This document shows positions 1,659 to 8,177 of a stretch of 64,000 nucleotides of DNA, one piece after another. The stretch is taken from NCBI GenBank assembly GCA_004282745.1, contig SHMT01000009.1, positions 63,039 through 127,038 of the forward strand. Direction: 5' to 3'. The DNA comes from Candidatus Scalindua sp. SCAELEC01. Its GTDB lineage: Bacteria; Planctomycetota; Brocadiia; Brocadiales; Scalinduaceae. The position numbers and the translations under genes are program-made. Each line of letters starts with the position of its first letter. The first letter of the stretch is position 1. The notes beneath the pieces are model-generated. The model was given only the letters and a program-made list of their open reading frames with translations, searched no databases and had not been told where the DNA came from.

Positions 1659-1913
1659 TTGGCTGATGTTAATATAGAAAAAGAGGTTACATCAATTGTA
1701 GCGGAAGTCACCGAGCTTGAAGAGAGTGAGATATGGGAAAAAAGAGATGCTGATTTTTTTAAGGACTTAGAAATCGATTCTTTATTAGCATTAGAAATTT
1801 TAGCGCTTATTGAGAAAAAGTTCAAAATTCAGATTCCGGAAGAGAAGCTGGTCGACATTACCTCGCTTAATGCCACAATTGAGATGACGAAATCAACGAT
1901 TGAGGGAAAGTAA
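1659..1913 (+). CDS. Acyl carrier protein (lipid cluster)
   Basis: An 84-residue acyl carrier protein that would carry acyl intermediates on a phosphopantetheine arm. The attachment site is Ser41 in E-I-D-S-L, followed by the helix-2 pattern L-A-L-E-I-L. It starts at TTG, chosen because AAGGAGG at 1645-1651 sits 7 bases upstream and no ATG follows in the domain. Only 2 bases separate it from the FabZ-like gene, so the two are almost certainly translated together. The sequence is more divergent from housekeeping AcpP than usual (V-N-I-E-K-E-V at the N-terminus), which fits a dedicated carrier for a specialised pathway. Anammox bacteria are known to have such a dedicated carrier; assignment to ladderane synthesis is inference from context. 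Confidence 0.9.
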   Translation: MADVNIEKEVTSIVAEVTELEESEIWEKRDADFFKDLEIDSLLALEILALIEKKFKIQIPEEKLVDITSLNATIEMTKSTIEGK

Positions 1914-1915
1914 CC

Positions 1916-2365
1916 ATGTTAAACTTTGAGGAAGTGAAGGAGTTAGTTCCTCAAAAATTTCCCTTCCTATTTATTGACAGGGTTATTGAATTCCAAAAAG
2001 AGAGCAAAATTGTCTGCCTGAAGAACGTTTCCGGCAATGAGGCTTTTTTTGCAGGGCACTTTCCCGGTTTTGCAATTATGCCGGGTGTGCTCATCATAGA
2101 GGCCCTGGCACAAGCATCAATACTTCTTTTCAAGAAGAGTTTTAATACCGATAAAGAGAAGGGCAGAGTGTTTCTTTTGGCTTCGGCCAATGTTCGTTTT
2201 TCAAAACCCGTATTCCCTGGAGATCAGTTAGTATTAGAGGTAAATAGTGAGAAAATTGTTTCTAATGCTGCAATAGTAAAGGGTGTCGCAAAAGTGGGTG
2301 ACAAGATCGTTACGAAGGCAACTTTGAGTTTTGGAGTCGCAGATAAAGATTCATTAATGCTTTAA
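1916..2365 (+). CDS. FabZ-type 3-hydroxyacyl-ACP dehydratase
   Basis: A hot-dog-fold dehydratase of 149 residues that removes water from 3-hydroxyacyl-ACP. The family motif G-H-F-P-G with catalytic His48 and the downstream helix L-I-I-E-A-L-A-Q with catalytic Glu62 are both intact, and P-F-L-F-I-D-R-V near residues 16-23 matches FabZ. The length is normal for FabZ. It begins 2 bases after the acyl carrier protein gene with GAGGGA as ribosome binding site. It would work with the carrier and the ketosynthases downstream. Whether it replaces or supplements a housekeeping FabZ cannot be told from this window; its setting suggests a specialised role. Confidence 0.92.
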   Translation: MLNFEEVKELVPQKFPFLFIDRVIEFQKESKIVCLKNVSGNEAFFAGHFPGFAIMPGVLIIEALAQASILLFKKSFNTDKEKGRVFLLASANVRFSKPVFPGDQLVLEVNSEKIVSNAAIVKGVAKVGDKIVTKATLSFGVADKDSLML

Positions 2366-2516
2366 GGGTCTGATTTAATCACGCATGGATTGAATCTACT
2401 GATAAGCAGCTCCTGAAAGAGCAACAAAAAGGTTTTAATCCCTGACAACTTATTTAACGTATCTCTTCTTGTATATGTAAATACCTTGAATTTGTAAACG
2501 AAGAGTTAGAAGTTCT

Positions 2517-3737
2517 ATGAACAAAAGAATCGTAATAACTGGTGTAGGAACAATTTCTCCTATAGGATGTGGCAACGATGCATTCTGGGATGCTTTAATT
2601 TCCGGTGAATCTGGTGTATCTGAAGTAAAGTCCTTCGATACATCCATTTTTAAGGTCCACAGAGGCTGTGAAGTAAAAGAGTTCAATTATGAGGATTACG
2701 TTAGTAGTAGTCCAAACCGCAAAATTGGCAAAGGTTCTCAATTCGCAATCGCTGCTACGAAGCTTGCTTTAGATGACTCTCAATTAAATATTAACGGTAT
2801 TGACCCTGAAAATATAGGTGTCTCTATTGGCACAACTGCAGGTGAGATCCAGATCCTTGAAAGGGTAAACCTTTTAAGATATGAAAACGGGGATGATAGC
2901 GTGGACCCCTATCTGTTTTTAAGTCACCCCTGCATCAATATCCCTTCTAACGTATCTATCGAGTTTGGTTTCAAAGGACCAACTACTATCATTCCGACCG
3001 CCTGTGCAGCAGGAAATTATGCTATAGGTTATGCATGCGACTTGATACGATTAGGCAGAGCAAAGATCATGTTGGCGGGTGGCTCAGACCCTTTTTCAAA
3101 AGTTGCATATGTTGGATTTGGTAGACTTAATGCTATTGCACCGGAAATTTGTCAACCTTTTGACAAAAACAGAAAGGGCATGCTTATCGGCGAAGGCGCA
3201 GGAATGCTGGTATTGGAGTCTCTGGATGATGCCCTGGCGAGAAACGCAAATATCTACGCAGAAATCTTAGGCTACGGTTTAAGCTGTGACGGTTACCACA
3301 TTACCATTCCTCACCCGGATGGAAACGGTGTTGTATCTGCAATGGAAAAGGCTTTAAAAGACGCAAAGATAAAGCCTGAAGATGTTCAATATATAAGCGC
3401 ACATGGTACGGGTACCCTGGCAAATGATAAAGCCGAAACAATATCGATCAAAAAGGTTTTTGGAGAGCATGCAAAGCGACTGGCGGTAAGTTCTATCAAG
3501 TCGATGCTGGGACACACTATGGGAGCGGCAAGTGCGATTGAGGCTATCGCGTGTGCCTTGGCCATCAAAGGAAACGTGGTACCACCTACAATAAACTATG
3601 AAACCATGGATCCTGAATGTGATTTAGATTTTGTACCAAACGTTAAACGCGAAATGGACATTACCATAGCGCTGAATAACGCATATGCCTTTGGTGGTAA
3701 TAATAGTTGTCTCGTGTTAAAAAAGTATTCGGGGTAG
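2517..3737 (+). CDS. FabF-type beta-ketoacyl-ACP synthase, active-site triad intact
   Basis: A 406-residue condensing enzyme of the KAS II type, joining malonyl-ACP to an acyl chain. The thiolase fold runs the whole length. The nucleophile is Cys163 in T-A-C-A-A-G; the two catalytic histidines are His296 in S-A-H-G-T-G-T and His333 in G-H-T-M-G-A, and Lys328 is present. The C-terminal glycine-rich [10 protein letters not shown] is typical. A 151-base gap separates it from the FabZ-like gene, and its ribosome binding site is weak. It is the likely catalytic partner of the degenerate ketosynthase encoded next. Its natural substrate is unknown. Confidence 0.93.
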
Positions 3738-3872
3738 GCGACCTGAATACCTCTTTAACTTTTGGTAAAACCATAGCAATTATTTGGGATATCGGCATAT
3801 GTTACGTTTATATGACAATGCCACTGTTTTTGATTTTAGAAAAATTATCTTTCTAATGGATTAACGATAATT

Positions 3873-5111
3873 ATGAGCACACGCTTAGTAATAACGGGTA
3901 TCAGTATTCTCTCTCCACTTGGATTAAACAAAGACGCTTTTTGGAGCAATTTAACAAATGGCGTTTCCGGAATAAAGGATGTCACCCTCTTTGATGTTTC
4001 GCGGTATAACAGCAAAAAGGCAGGTGAGATTTCAGACTTTGACGCAAGAGAATTCCTTGGGAAAAAGGGGATCAGGCATATCGACAGAACTTCTCTATTG
4101 GCCTCTTCCGCTGCAAAATTGGTAATGAACGATGCGAAAATCACCCATGATATTTATCGAGAAGAGGATTTGGGAATCGTAATAGGCTCAACCTACGGAA
4201 GCATTGACAGCATCAGCTCATTTGATTTAGACGCGCTCAAAGAGGGCGCTAATTTTGTTAATCCCATGGAATTTCCCAATACTGTCTTGAATGCCCCCGC
4301 AAGTAGGGCTTCAATATTTTGTCATGCAACCGGCCTTAATTCCACTATTTCAACTGGTGTCACAAGCGGACTGGATGCGATAATTTACGCATCAGATTTC
4401 TTGCGTTTGAATCGAGTAAAAGCGGTATTAGCCGGCGGTGTCTACGGGTTAGCTCCGGACATCTTTTGGGGGGCCTATAGAGCTGGGATACTCTCTGGTA
4501 GTAAGGGAGAATCGGTTGAAATATCAGCTCCATTTGATAAGAGGCGAAGCGGCTTTATCATAGGGGAAACCGCAGCGCTTCTTGTTTTAGAAAGGCTAGA
4601 AGATGCGAAACAAAGAGGCGCTCATATTTACGCTGAAATAAAGGGGTACGGAAATACCTTTAATCCCAAAAAAATTGATCATAAAATATCTGATACAGAA
4701 GAGGGTCTCAGGTGTATCTCTCTGGCGATGAGAGAGGCCAAACTTAATATTGACGACATCTCCTATATTTCGGCATGTGCAAACTCCAGCAAAACCGGAG
4801 ATATAATGGAGACCAATGTTATAAAAGATTACTTTGGAAATATCGCAAAAAAAGTCCCCGTAAGTGCCATTAAATCCATGACCGGTGAATGTCTTGACGC
4901 TTCCGGAGCTATGCAGTGTATTGCGAGTATCATGGCAATTAATAATAGCATTATCCCACCTACAATAAATTATCAAGAAAAAGACGACCTGTGCGACTTA
5001 GATTATGTACCAAACAAAAGCAGAGAATTAGCCGTCAACAACGTCCTGATCAACGCTTTTTCTGACACCGGTAACATTTCATCTATAATCATCTCAAAAT
5101 ATTCAAGTTAA
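3873..5111 (+). CDS. Ketosynthase-like protein lacking all catalytic residues (chain-length-factor-like)
   Basis: A 412-residue FabF paralogue that aligns over its full length with the preceding ketosynthase but has lost the active site. The nucleophilic Cys is Val163 (T-G-V-T-S-G), the first His is Cys302 (S-A-C-A-N-S-S) and the second His is Glu339 (M-T-G-E-C); only the nearby Lys334 is kept. The fold-defining segments, for example V-L-A-G-G near residue 185 and P-F-D-K-R-R-S-G near 220, remain. Family knowledge: in type II polyketide synthases a dead KS-beta subunit pairs with an active KS to set chain length. I infer a similar heterodimer here. It follows the active gene after a 135-base gap and shows no frameshift, so it is not a decaying pseudogene. 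Confidence 0.9.
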   Translation: MSTRLVITGISILSPLGLNKDAFWSNLTNGVSGIKDVTLFDVSRYNSKKAGEISDFDAREFLGKKGIRHIDRTSLLASSAAKLVMNDAKITHDIYREEDLGIVIGSTYGSIDSISSFDLDALKEGANFVNPMEFPNTVLNAPASRASIFCHATGLNSTISTGVTSGLDAIIYASDFLRLNRVKAVLAGGVYGLAPDIFWGAYRAGILSGSKGESVEISAPFDKRRSGFIIGETAALLVLERLEDAKQRGAHIYAEIKGYGNTFNPKKIDHKISDTEEGLRCISLAMREAKLNIDDISYISACANSSKTGDIMETNVIKDYFGNIAKKVPVSAIKSMTGECLDASGAMQCIASIMAINNSIIPPTINYQEKDDLCDLDYVPNKSRELAVNNVLINAFSDTGNISSIIISKYSS

Positions 5112-5285
5112 TCATTGATGATTACCATTGGAACAAACTTTTTACAACTAGTATACCCATCTCATAATGGTTTTCGGATAAAATCCAAGATCAAAGTGAG
5201 CGAGTAAAGTCCTCGGCTTTTGTCCGGGGATAACGGCAATCAGATCTGAGTCATTTGATAAACAAAATTCAACCTGGTAAGTCCA

Positions 5286-6698
5286 ATGAGTGAGAAAGAG
5301 TCAAAATACGATGTAATCATTCTGGGTGCTGGAATTGGCGGCTTAATTTGTGGCACATTCTTGGCAAAAAGCGGGAAAAAAGTGCTGATAATTGAGCAAC
5401 ATTACCTACCCGGAGGCTATTGCACCGCTTTTAAAAGAAAGGGCTTTACTTTCGATGCTGCAGTCCACCACATTGGAGGATGTGGTACCTGGAGCATCGT
5501 TGGCAGGTGCTTCAAAGAGCTCGGAATAGAGATTGAGTTTCTACAACTTGACCCTATGGACTCTTTGAACTTCCCTACCTTTTCCATAGATGTACCCGCG
5601 AACCTTGATGATTACATAGACCTACTCAAAACAAACTTTGTCTCTGAAAGCAACACTATTTCAGCGTTCTTCAAGGAATTTGTGGGGTTGTATCGATCAA
5701 CGGTTCGTTCAAAGGCGAACGAACTATTAATGAAGTACAAAGATCTCACGTATAAAGAGATGTTAGATATGTTTTTTACTGATGAACGTCTCAAGATGGT
5801 CCTGTCCGCCCAGTGGGGCTATATTGGTTCTCCCCCTCATGAGGCTTCTGCCATCGGCATGTGCCAAATGTTGGTTAATTACCTTAAAGATGGCGCTTTC
5901 TATCCGATCGGAAGTACCCAAAATTTCGCTGATGCCATTACTCAAAAATTTATTGACTATGGTGGTCAGATTATGTTATCTTCTAAAGTCGACAGGATAT
6001 GGGCGAAAGATAAGCTTGTAAAAGGAGTTATAACGGACAGAGGAAAAGAATACCGCGCTGATATTTTCGTTTCAAATATAGATCCAGGTCAGGCATTTTT
6101 TAAGCTATTTGATAATCAAAAAATTGACGAATCGTACCTTCATAAAATAAGAGCTATGAAGGAGAGCGTATCTTTCTTCTTATTGTATTTAGGAATCGAC
6201 AACGAAATTGATTTAAAAGGATTAAAGAGAGGCTTCTATCACACATCGAAAGATTTGAGTTTTTCCGATAATGGTTGGTTCTATATATCGGTACCGACAA
6301 GATCTGATGCAACCCTTGCACCCAACGGCAAGCAGATAATTACCGTTGTGGTCTCTTTAAAAGAGCGTTTTGATGAAATAGAAGATTTTGACTCCTTTAG
6401 GGAAAAGATGACAAAATATACGATGAATTATCTTAAAACGCTTGTCCCCAATATCCAGAACCACATTGACGTAGTCGAGACTGGCACTCCCAAGACTTTA
6501 AAACGCTATACCCTTAACTCACAGGGAGCTGCCTATGGATGGGCCGTTACCGTAGACCAAACTTGGTCGAATAGGCTTCTACACACAACACCTTTCAAAA
6601 ATCTCTTTCTAGCAGGACACTGGACAAATCCTGGACCAGGGATCTGTGCCGTTGTTTCCTCAGGCTGGAGGGTGGCTAATATGATTTTAAATAATTAG
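5286..6698 (+). CDS. CrtI-like FAD-dependent desaturase/isomerase
   Basis: A 470-residue flavoprotein of the phytoene desaturase / carotenoid isomerase superfamily. The N-terminal dinucleotide-binding motif G-A-G-I-G-G is at residues 14-19, followed by the E-Q-H-Y-L-P-G-G segment typical of this family, and the C-terminal FAD motif (A-G-H-W-T-N-P-G-P-G) lies near residues 443-452. It sits between the ketosynthase pair and a radical SAM gene, so a carotenoid role is unlikely to be the whole story. CrtI-like genes are among those proposed for ladderane synthesis, where a desaturation or isomerisation of the acyl chain is expected. The reaction is not known from sequence. Confidence 0.85.
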   Translation: MSEKESKYDVIILGAGIGGLICGTFLAKSGKKVLIIEQHYLPGGYCTAFKRKGFTFDAAVHHIGGCGTWSIVGRCFKELGIEIEFLQLDPMDSLNFPTFSIDVPANLDDYIDLLKTNFVSESNTISAFFKEFVGLYRSTVRSKANELLMKYKDLTYKEMLDMFFTDERLKMVLSAQWGYIGSPPHEASAIGMCQMLVNYLKDGAFYPIGSTQNFADAITQKFIDYGGQIMLSSKVDRIWAKDKLVKGVITDRGKEYRADIFVSNIDPGQAFFKLFDNQKIDESYLHKIRAMKESVSFFLLYLGIDNEIDLKGLKRGFYHTSKDLSFSDNGWFYISVPTRSDATLAPNGKQIITVVVSLKERFDEIEDFDSFREKMTKYTMNYLKTLVPNIQNHIDVVETGTPKTLKRYTLNSQGAAYGWAVTVDQTWSNRLLHTTPFKNLFLAGHWTNPGPGICAVVSSGWRVANMILNN

Positions 6699-6710
6699 GA
6701 GGACAAGAAA

Positions 6711-8177
6711 ATGCGAAAAATGTTGCTCATCAATCCACATCCACCGGGAAGACATGGTGAAGAAAGTATTTCCGTTATCGTGCAAATGCCTTTAAATCTG
6801 GCATATATCGTAGCTTTAACTCCTGGAGATTGGGAATTTGACATAATTGATGAAAATATGGAACTCGCCCTTGATGAGAAGGGGGAAATAACATTTGAAC
6901 CCGTCGATCTGGTATGCATCACTTCTGTCACCTACCAAGTAGCAAGGGCATACCGAATCGCGGAAGCCTGTAGAAAACAGGGAATGACCGTAATCATGGG
7001 AGGAATACATGCCTCTGTTGTGCCAGACGAATCGGCCAAATATGTGGATGCGATATTCACCGGTGAAGCAGAAGCTCTCTGGCCGCAGGTAATTAAAGAT
7101 TTCGAAAACGGAGAACTCAAGAAAGTCTACAATGGAGGACTTCCAGCCTTATCAGAGATGAAACACGTGTTTCCTGACAGAGAGTTTTTGAGGAATAAAT
7201 ATGATTATAAGTTCTCTTCTATTGTGACAACGAAAGGGTGCCCAAATTACTGTGATTTTTGTAGTGTTCCCACATTCCAGGGAAAAAAGTATCGAGAAAG
7301 ACCCTATGAAGACGTCCTAGATGAGATGGAAGCCACTGATTACAAGGGACTGATGTTTGCTGAGGACAATTTTTATGGTCATAGCAAGAACTCTGCAAAC
7401 AGGGCAAAAGATCTCTGGCGTGGAATGATTGACAGAGGCATTAAAAAGGATTGGCTTGGTTTTACGGCCCTGAATATTTCACAGGATTCTGAGGCCCTGG
7501 ATCTGATGGCCAAGAGTGGGAATTTTGGATTTCTCTGCGGAATAGAATCGACGAACGAGGCAGTCCTTGAAAAGATGAATAAAAAGGTCAATCTCAGGCT
7601 CGGAACTGATAGTTATTACGATTGCATCCAAAAGGTCCATGATCACGGCCTCATTGTTTGGGGATCTATCGTATTGGGTGCTGATGGAGACAATAAAGAT
7701 TCATTTAAAACGATGACAGAATTTGTCCTCGAAAACAATATTGACGTCCTTACTTTTGGGATTAATTGCCCCTTCCCGAAAACCGCCCTTTACCAGAGAC
7801 TTGACTCGGAAAAAAGGATTTTTCGCAAAAATTATCCTGAAGACTGGAAGTATTATGATACGGCACATGTTGTACACAGGTTTGTTGATATGGAACTAGA
7901 AGACTTTATTGAAGGCATGCAGTACATGTATGATAATCTTTATGCCGGCGACAATCTGAGACTCCGTTTTAGAAAATCTGCCAAAACCATTGGTAGCACA
8001 ATGCTTGGAAAACGAAATGCTATGTTTGGTTTTAGGGTAGGGTCTGATTGGCAGCAGGTCTTTCAGCAGGTATTAGAAAACCTCCATAAACTGTATGATT
8101 CCGGGGATTATTACCGGGATTGGTATAAGAGCAGTGCGGTAACAGTACCCTCTAAAAAAGAAGTTTCCGTAAGTTAA
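6711..8177 (+). CDS. B12-binding-domain radical SAM protein
   Basis: A 488-residue radical SAM enzyme of the cobalamin-binding-domain class (BchE/HpnR-like architecture). Residues of about 1-140 form a B12-binding-like Rossmann domain ending V-I-M-G-G-I-H near 94-100, without the D-x-H-x-x-G ligand motif. The iron-sulphur cluster motif C-x3-C-x2-C is Cys177, Cys181 and Cys184. The radical SAM core extends to about residue 380, with a helical tail. A strong ribosome binding site (AGGAGG) is 7 bases before the ATG, and only 12 bases separate it from the CrtI-like gene. It would generate a 5'-deoxyadenosyl radical; a radical C-C bond-forming step has been suggested for ladderane rings, but substrate and reaction are inferred. 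Confidence 0.9.
   Translation: MRKMLLINPHPPGRHGEESISVIVQMPLNLAYIVALTPGDWEFDIIDENMELALDEKGEITFEPVDLVCITSVTYQVARAYRIAEACRKQGMTVIMGGIHASVVPDESAKYVDAIFTGEAEALWPQVIKDFENGELKKVYNGGLPALSEMKHVFPDREFLRNKYDYKFSSIVTTKGCPNYCDFCSVPTFQGKKYRERPYEDVLDEMEATDYKGLMFAEDNFYGHSKNSANRAKDLWRGMIDRGIKKDWLGFTALNISQDSEALDLMAKSGNFGFLCGIESTNEAVLEKMNKKVNLRLGTDSYYDCIQKVHDHGLIVWGSIVLGADGDNKDSFKTMTEFVLENNIDVLTFGINCPFPKTALYQRLDSEKRIFRKNYPEDWKYYDTAHVVHRFVDMELEDFIEGMQYMYDNLYAGDNLRLRFRKSAKTIGSTMLGKRNAMFGFRVGSDWQQVFQQVLENLHKLYDSGDYYRDWYKSSAVTVPSKKEVSVS

Follow-up and report, generated by a model that had tools for sequence, protein, structure and literature searches.

What is the role of a ketosynthase-like protein that lacks all three catalytic residues and is nevertheless kept beside an intact ketosynthase (KS) in an anammox bacterium? 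Ladderanes are fused cyclobutane lipids unique to anammox bacteria, and to our knowledge their biosynthesis in bacteria is unsolved. The window, meaning the whole stretch of 64,000 nucleotides that was analysed, belongs to a genome of the order Brocadiales with a match to hydrazine synthase alpha. An operon of six genes was found at positions 1659-8177:

1659..1913, + strand: acyl carrier protein (ACP); PF00550, 51 bits; kuste3603 orthologue by operon position
1916..2365, + strand: FabZ-type 3-hydroxyacyl-ACP dehydratase; NF000582, 148.9 bits, exceeding the cut-off of 113
2517..3737, + strand: intact ketosynthase KS1, the partner subunit; C163/H296/H333; closest PDB chain 9s5h_B (E 1.9e-206); groups with Iga11
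3873..5111, + strand: pseudo-ketosynthase PS1, resembling a chain-length factor (CLF); V163/C302/E339; closest PDB chain 9s5h_C (E 6.4e-172); groups with Iga12
5286..6698, + strand: phytoene-desaturase-like flavoprotein; PF01593; TIGR02734, 153.8 bits, under the cut-off; kuste3607 orthologue by operon position
6711..8177, + strand: B12-binding radical SAM protein; PF04055 and PF02310; TIGR04072, 83.5 bits, under the cut-off; kuste3608 orthologue by operon position

In PMC4790861, genes kuste3603-3608 of Kuenenia stuttgartiensis have this order, which is repeated in the Brocadiales genome G013. A FabZ dehydratase was present, but no ketoreductase (KR) was found in the window operon with the open reading frame list and family profiles. 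When the operon ACP was searched against PDB sequences, 7qv0_D and 7auf_A came top, followed by 9s5i_E.

The pseudo-KS reading frame starts with ATG and encodes 412 amino acids without an internal stop, and Pfam detected both KS domains in it (PF00109, 119.5 bits; PF02801, 83.9 bits). Its V163, C302 and E339 (own numbering) align with C163, H296 and H333 of the neighbouring KS and lie in the motifs STGVTSG, SACANSS and TGECLDAS. The first-pass annotation, which had read Cys to Val, His to Cys and His to Glu replacements in a full-length frame beside an intact KS, was thus exact; displaced catalytic residues near the three sites were looked for in the alignment to the neighbouring KS, and none was found. 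The predicted monomer was a confident KS fold (pLDDT 93) when 55 homologues were aligned, and pLDDT was only 30 without an alignment. The protein is not a FabF, because it scored 346.6 bits against the FabF equivalog TIGR03150, below the cut-off of 493.75, and the Cys-His-His triad is missing. In fact, the replacement was published in 2009 for the Kuenenia orthologue, so the core of the observation is not new: Kuste3606 has Val163, Asn298, Glu333 and Gln342, which were considered incompatible with normal FabF chain elongation (Rattray 2009, PMC2649909). At the first His site the window protein has Cys where Kuste3606 has Asn, and the 2009 paper did not term Kuste3606 a CLF or part of a heterodimer. 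Kuste3606 was later put into synthetic operons as a "non-canonical FabF" (Javidpour 2016, PMC4790861); E. coli expressing kuste genes produced no ladderanes, and protein insolubility was one suggested reason (PMC4790861). Moreover, kuste2805, 3603 and 3605-3606 appear in a figure on genes tied to the origin of anammox, and four ladderane candidates were potentially acquired at that origin (PMC9387917).

A pseudo-KS orthologue was found in 56 of 59 Brocadiales genomes with an identity of at least 62%, the remaining three being draft assemblies, and the counterpart in Ca. Scalindua rubra was 84% identical. All three residues were absent in each of the 51 orthologues aligned and retained in each of the 46 partner KSs aligned, so the loss is not due to chance or sequencing error. 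The residues that replace them were variable: Val (35), Glu (8), Thr (7) or Ile (1) at the Cys site (163), Asn (36) or Cys (15) at the first His site, and Glu (45) or Asp (6) at the second. Therefore, the absence of the triad is conserved and the Val/Cys/Glu set is not, although the first-pass annotation had raised its conservation across anammox genomes. The same annotation had named two signs that would together speak against its reading. Variable residues in relatives do occur as far as the replacing residues are concerned, while the absence of the triad is constant; relaxed selection, with dN/dS near 1, was not seen. Codon models (iqtree) in two families gave omega values of 0.085 and 0.053 for the pseudo-KS and of 0.054 and 0.034 for the partner KS, and values of 0.05-0.09 indicate that the pseudo-KS is kept by selection and is not decaying. 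Invariant in all 51 orthologues (KS numbering) were the Gly before the Cys site, Lys328, Asp304, Glu307 and the Gln that replaces Glu342.

The KS and the pseudo-KS also stay together. Wherever the two genes could be read over their whole length (46 loci), the tandem order was the same, with an intergenic gap of -1 to 147 nt. Two PDB entries, 9s5h and 9s5i, known here only through sequence matches, contain orthologues of the KS (chain B) and the pseudo-KS (chain C), with eight chains of each over the two entries, and an ACP related to that of the window operon is chain E of 9s5i. Chain C of 9s5h was 94% identical to the pseudo-KS of another Brocadiales genome (G030). The entry was outside the best 50 Foldseek matches in a PDB copy up to 2026-04-08, which suggests a later release, and a literature search found no paper on either entry. 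Kuste3605 and Kuste3606 are the orthologous pair in the same operon, whose orthologues were thus solved together with an ACP. The equal chain numbers, the low omega values and the tandem order agree with the suggestion of the first-pass annotation that the protein is a CLF-like partner of the adjacent KS and not a decaying copy. These points support the KS-CLF-like reading of the pair, in which the two subunits would form one complex.

A second KS/pseudo-KS pair was found in the source genome (contig C18, L056:6935-13074). Its pseudo-KS2 has Phe, Asn and Glu at the catalytic sites and Gln at site 342. Since kuste2805-type sites are Phe163, Asn298 and Glu333 (Rattray 2009, PMC2649909), KS2 and pseudo-KS2 correspond, by residues and position, to kuste2804/2805. 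The second pair adjoins a radical SAM paralogue (53% identity to the radical SAM protein of the window) and lies beside an FMN/pyridine-nucleotide oxidoreductase (PF00724 and PF07992).

Outside anammox, a pseudo-KS profile scan over genomes detected relatives in Omnitrophota and in an Acidobacterium. In the sample of 285 Omnitrophota genomes, with the search centred on G060, about 60 had a match above 427 bits, which was taken as the carrier cut-off; the next scores were 412. Cys/His/His were absent in 30 of 30 Omnitrophota loci read, where the pattern was Gly-Phe, then Asn at the Thr305 site, Lys, and Glu or Asp. Several operons contained a pseudo-KS, FabG, ACP, FabZ and KS (L182, L183, L184, L187, L080 and L081), with a FabG-like SDR in L183, and three loci (L182, L183 and L187) had a phytoene-desaturase-like gene in addition. 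These operons look like the anammox ladderane candidate operon. Of 16 pseudo-KS carriers among the Omnitrophota, 12 also had a partner KS (identity of at least 60%), which in 10 cases lay no more than 6 kb away on the contig of the pseudo-KS. A close partner was not found in the other four (G250, G210, G240 and G278), perhaps owing to draft gaps or to a different partner. An Acidobacteria locus (L139:3881-6420) has a KS and an overlapping pseudo-KS, and in the tree these two lay closest to Iga11 and Iga12. In what is available of their texts, a type II PKS catalogue lists Planctomycetes and Omnitrophica among the phyla with KS-CLF hits (PMC10132072), and antiSMASH "ladderane" clusters are reported in Omnitrophota MAGs (PMC9902471); those parts of the two papers do not describe the present pair. 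Omnitrophota thus carry a sister system that is open to comparative study.

The trees separated the two kinds of subunit. The pseudo-KSs of both anammox pairs and of Omnitrophota formed one clade (100/100), and the KSs of both pairs and of Omnitrophota formed another (100/100). After the enzymes of ishigamide synthesis and Streptomyces clusters resembling that of Iga11 had been added, the KSs together with Iga11 and the highly reducing (HR) KSs were split from all other rows with support of 100/99 (99/97 in an earlier tree with Iga11 inside), and so were the pseudo-KSs together with Iga12 and the HR-CLFs (100/99; 100/100 in another tree). Both groups stood apart from FabF and from aromatic KS/CLF. 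The Iga11 and Iga12 sequences were copied from printed alignments, and several rows, including Iga12 and the CLFs, were of unusual composition, with some long branches. A duplication private to anammox, Omnitrophota and Acidobacteria, without the Iga-type rows, was rejected (p-AU 0.0058). A single origin of dead KSs shared with aromatic CLF was neither shown nor rejected (p-AU 0.23), and the p-AU of a tree with the CLFs as a clade excluding the pseudo-KS was 0.069. Consistently, a PDB search with a CLF of the Iga12 type, encoded on a Streptomyces plasmid, ranked 6kxd_B and then 9s5h_C above every FabF, and the motif GT[TL]xGE is common to KS1, KS2 and Iga11, where FabF has GSGIGG. The sequence comparison supports a common pseudo-KS lineage for the dead subunit and Iga12, and a descent of the adjacent KS from the lineage of Iga11. 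Because both are highly reducing type II PKS lineages, the idea of the first-pass annotation that the condensing enzyme acts outside polyketide synthesis is probably wrong.

How close is this pair to the known systems? In the Iga11-Iga12 system (ishigamide, 6kxd), with which each anammox subunit groups, an ACP and a dehydratase are likewise present. ACP, FabZ, KS and CLF are the highly reducing type II PKS set as described in PMC10698177, minus the KR. Unlike the Iga11-Iga12 system, the anammox pair has Val, Glu, Thr or Ile at the Cys site, no KR in the operon and presumably another product. KS1 and KS2 both carry Ala where Iga11 has its repulsive Asp113, a column that corresponds to the FabF pocket position I108, so the release mechanism of Iga11 is not simply transferable. 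Aromatic type II PKSs (KS-alpha/CLF of the actinorhodin type) also have a tandem of a KS and a dead KS, and the anammox pair would function in a similar way. However, the aromatic CLF signature is D/E162, mostly Q163, D303, A305, R340 and D349, and the anammox pseudo-KS has G, V, C/N, N/Y, E and Q at these sites; none of the 51 orthologues has the Gln at the Cys position, and the intact anammox KS groups apart from aromatic KS-alpha. The aryl polyene enzyme ApeO-ApeC (PMC8358021) is a heterodimeric KS-CLF of a highly reducing pathway, as the anammox pair would be, but ApeC, with a single thiolase fold, amounts to roughly half a KS, whereas the anammox pseudo-KS has both KS domains. AmcF-AmcG of cispentacin biosynthesis (PMC10698177) likewise combine an HR-type KS with a partner without functional motifs; the AmcF model gave the window KS 238.9 bits, below its cut-off of 325, and AmcG is likened by description only.

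Taken as a whole, the explanation that we consider quite probable is a catalytically inert CLF-like subunit of Iga11/Iga12 descent, acting in a polyene-to-ladderane route. Its heterodimer part is well supported, and for the polyene and ladderane part we hypothesize the following. The KS would transfer and condense the chain, and the dead subunit may shape the shared acyl pocket, help ACP docking and, in the manner of a CLF, determine the length of the chain. Aided by FabZ and by a ketoreductase presumably encoded elsewhere, the pair would elongate the ACP-bound chain without enoyl reduction to a polyenoyl-ACP, which the neighbouring redox and radical SAM enzymes may turn into the ladderane skeleton. 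Points that weigh against this explanation are the failure of kuste genes to yield ladderanes in E. coli, the Ala in the Asp113 column, the operon without a ketoreductase, the unusual composition and long branches in the trees, and the four Omnitrophota genomes without a close partner KS. Another scenario is that the dead subunit aids one elongation and a ring closure, in the manner of AmcF-AmcG. Cispentacin provides a precedent (PMC10698177), ladderanes need ring closures and the AmcF model does match the window KS. Yet this match is under the cut-off, the AmcG family was not among the pseudo-KS matches, and in the trees the dead subunit goes with CLFs of the Iga12 type, which makes a cyclisation factor quite unlikely.

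An alternative, put forward by Rattray (2009), is that the pseudo-KS works on its own with a novel chemistry and supplies fatty acid synthesis with a ladderane moiety formed elsewhere. An active site strongly unlike FabF in a retained fold would fit it, as would the maintenance of Lys328, Asp304 and Glu307 and the conserved Glu or Asp at the second His site. On the other hand, variation such as that at site 163 and the first His site is unlike a conserved new active site, an independent catalytic triad was rejected, the protein adjoins an intact KS wherever both are readable in anammox, and an orthologue occurs in crystal entries with KS and ACP; we regard this alternative as very unlikely. 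That the pseudo-KS is a decaying or functionless duplicate has next to no probability: all catalytic residues are gone, but the gene is full-length, widespread in Brocadiales and under strong constraint, an orthologue was crystallised with the KS, and conservation together with omega rules out a pseudogene. A further possibility accepts the heteromer but assigns it to the elongation of common anammox lipids, saturated or branched, that have no link with ladderanes. Related pairs do exist in Omnitrophota, where ladderanes are not established, and ladderanes are only a candidate product of the anammox pair. However, the pairs are spread over the whole anammox order and occur in every family in which hydrazine synthase alpha was detected, the gene is a candidate gained at the anammox origin (PMC9387917), and the same operon carries radical SAM and desaturase-like genes, so we consider ordinary lipids a rather unlikely product.

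The gene (Kuenenia kuste3606) and the co-crystal (9s5h/9s5i) are already known; what is new is the placement in highly reducing type II PKS, the presence of a second pair in each genome that was checked, and the relatives in Omnitrophota. Since both subunits would lie in a polyene-making type II PKS lineage, the placement gives a concrete proposal for the first stage, in which cycles of condensation, ketoreduction and dehydration lead to an ACP-bound polyene. That ladderanes begin as polyenes from two HR type II PKS-like KS-CLF pairs, shared by descent with a large and so far unstudied set of Omnitrophota operons, is a tentative proposal that we hold to be possible. If it is true, the Omnitrophota operons (pseudo-KS, FabG, ACP, FabZ and KS, at times joined by the phytoene-desaturase-like gene) would make related unusual lipids. 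The KS inventory narrows the ladderane candidates. Two KS/pseudo-KS pairs were present in all 12 Brocadiales genomes fully searched (PF00109); besides these pairs and FabF, no KS was shared by the 12. A KS trio like kuste3346/3348/3349 was recognised among them in G013 only (L185, G013:C1:835000-852000); the kuste3346-3349-like cluster was not recognised in the other genomes searched, including G028 of the same genus, and is thus unlikely to be required for ladderanes. The KS domains numbered 28 to 33 per genome in two members of family f4 (G004 and G007), where many of them belong to large frames that resemble type I PKSs, and 5 to 8 in the remaining Brocadiales genomes checked.
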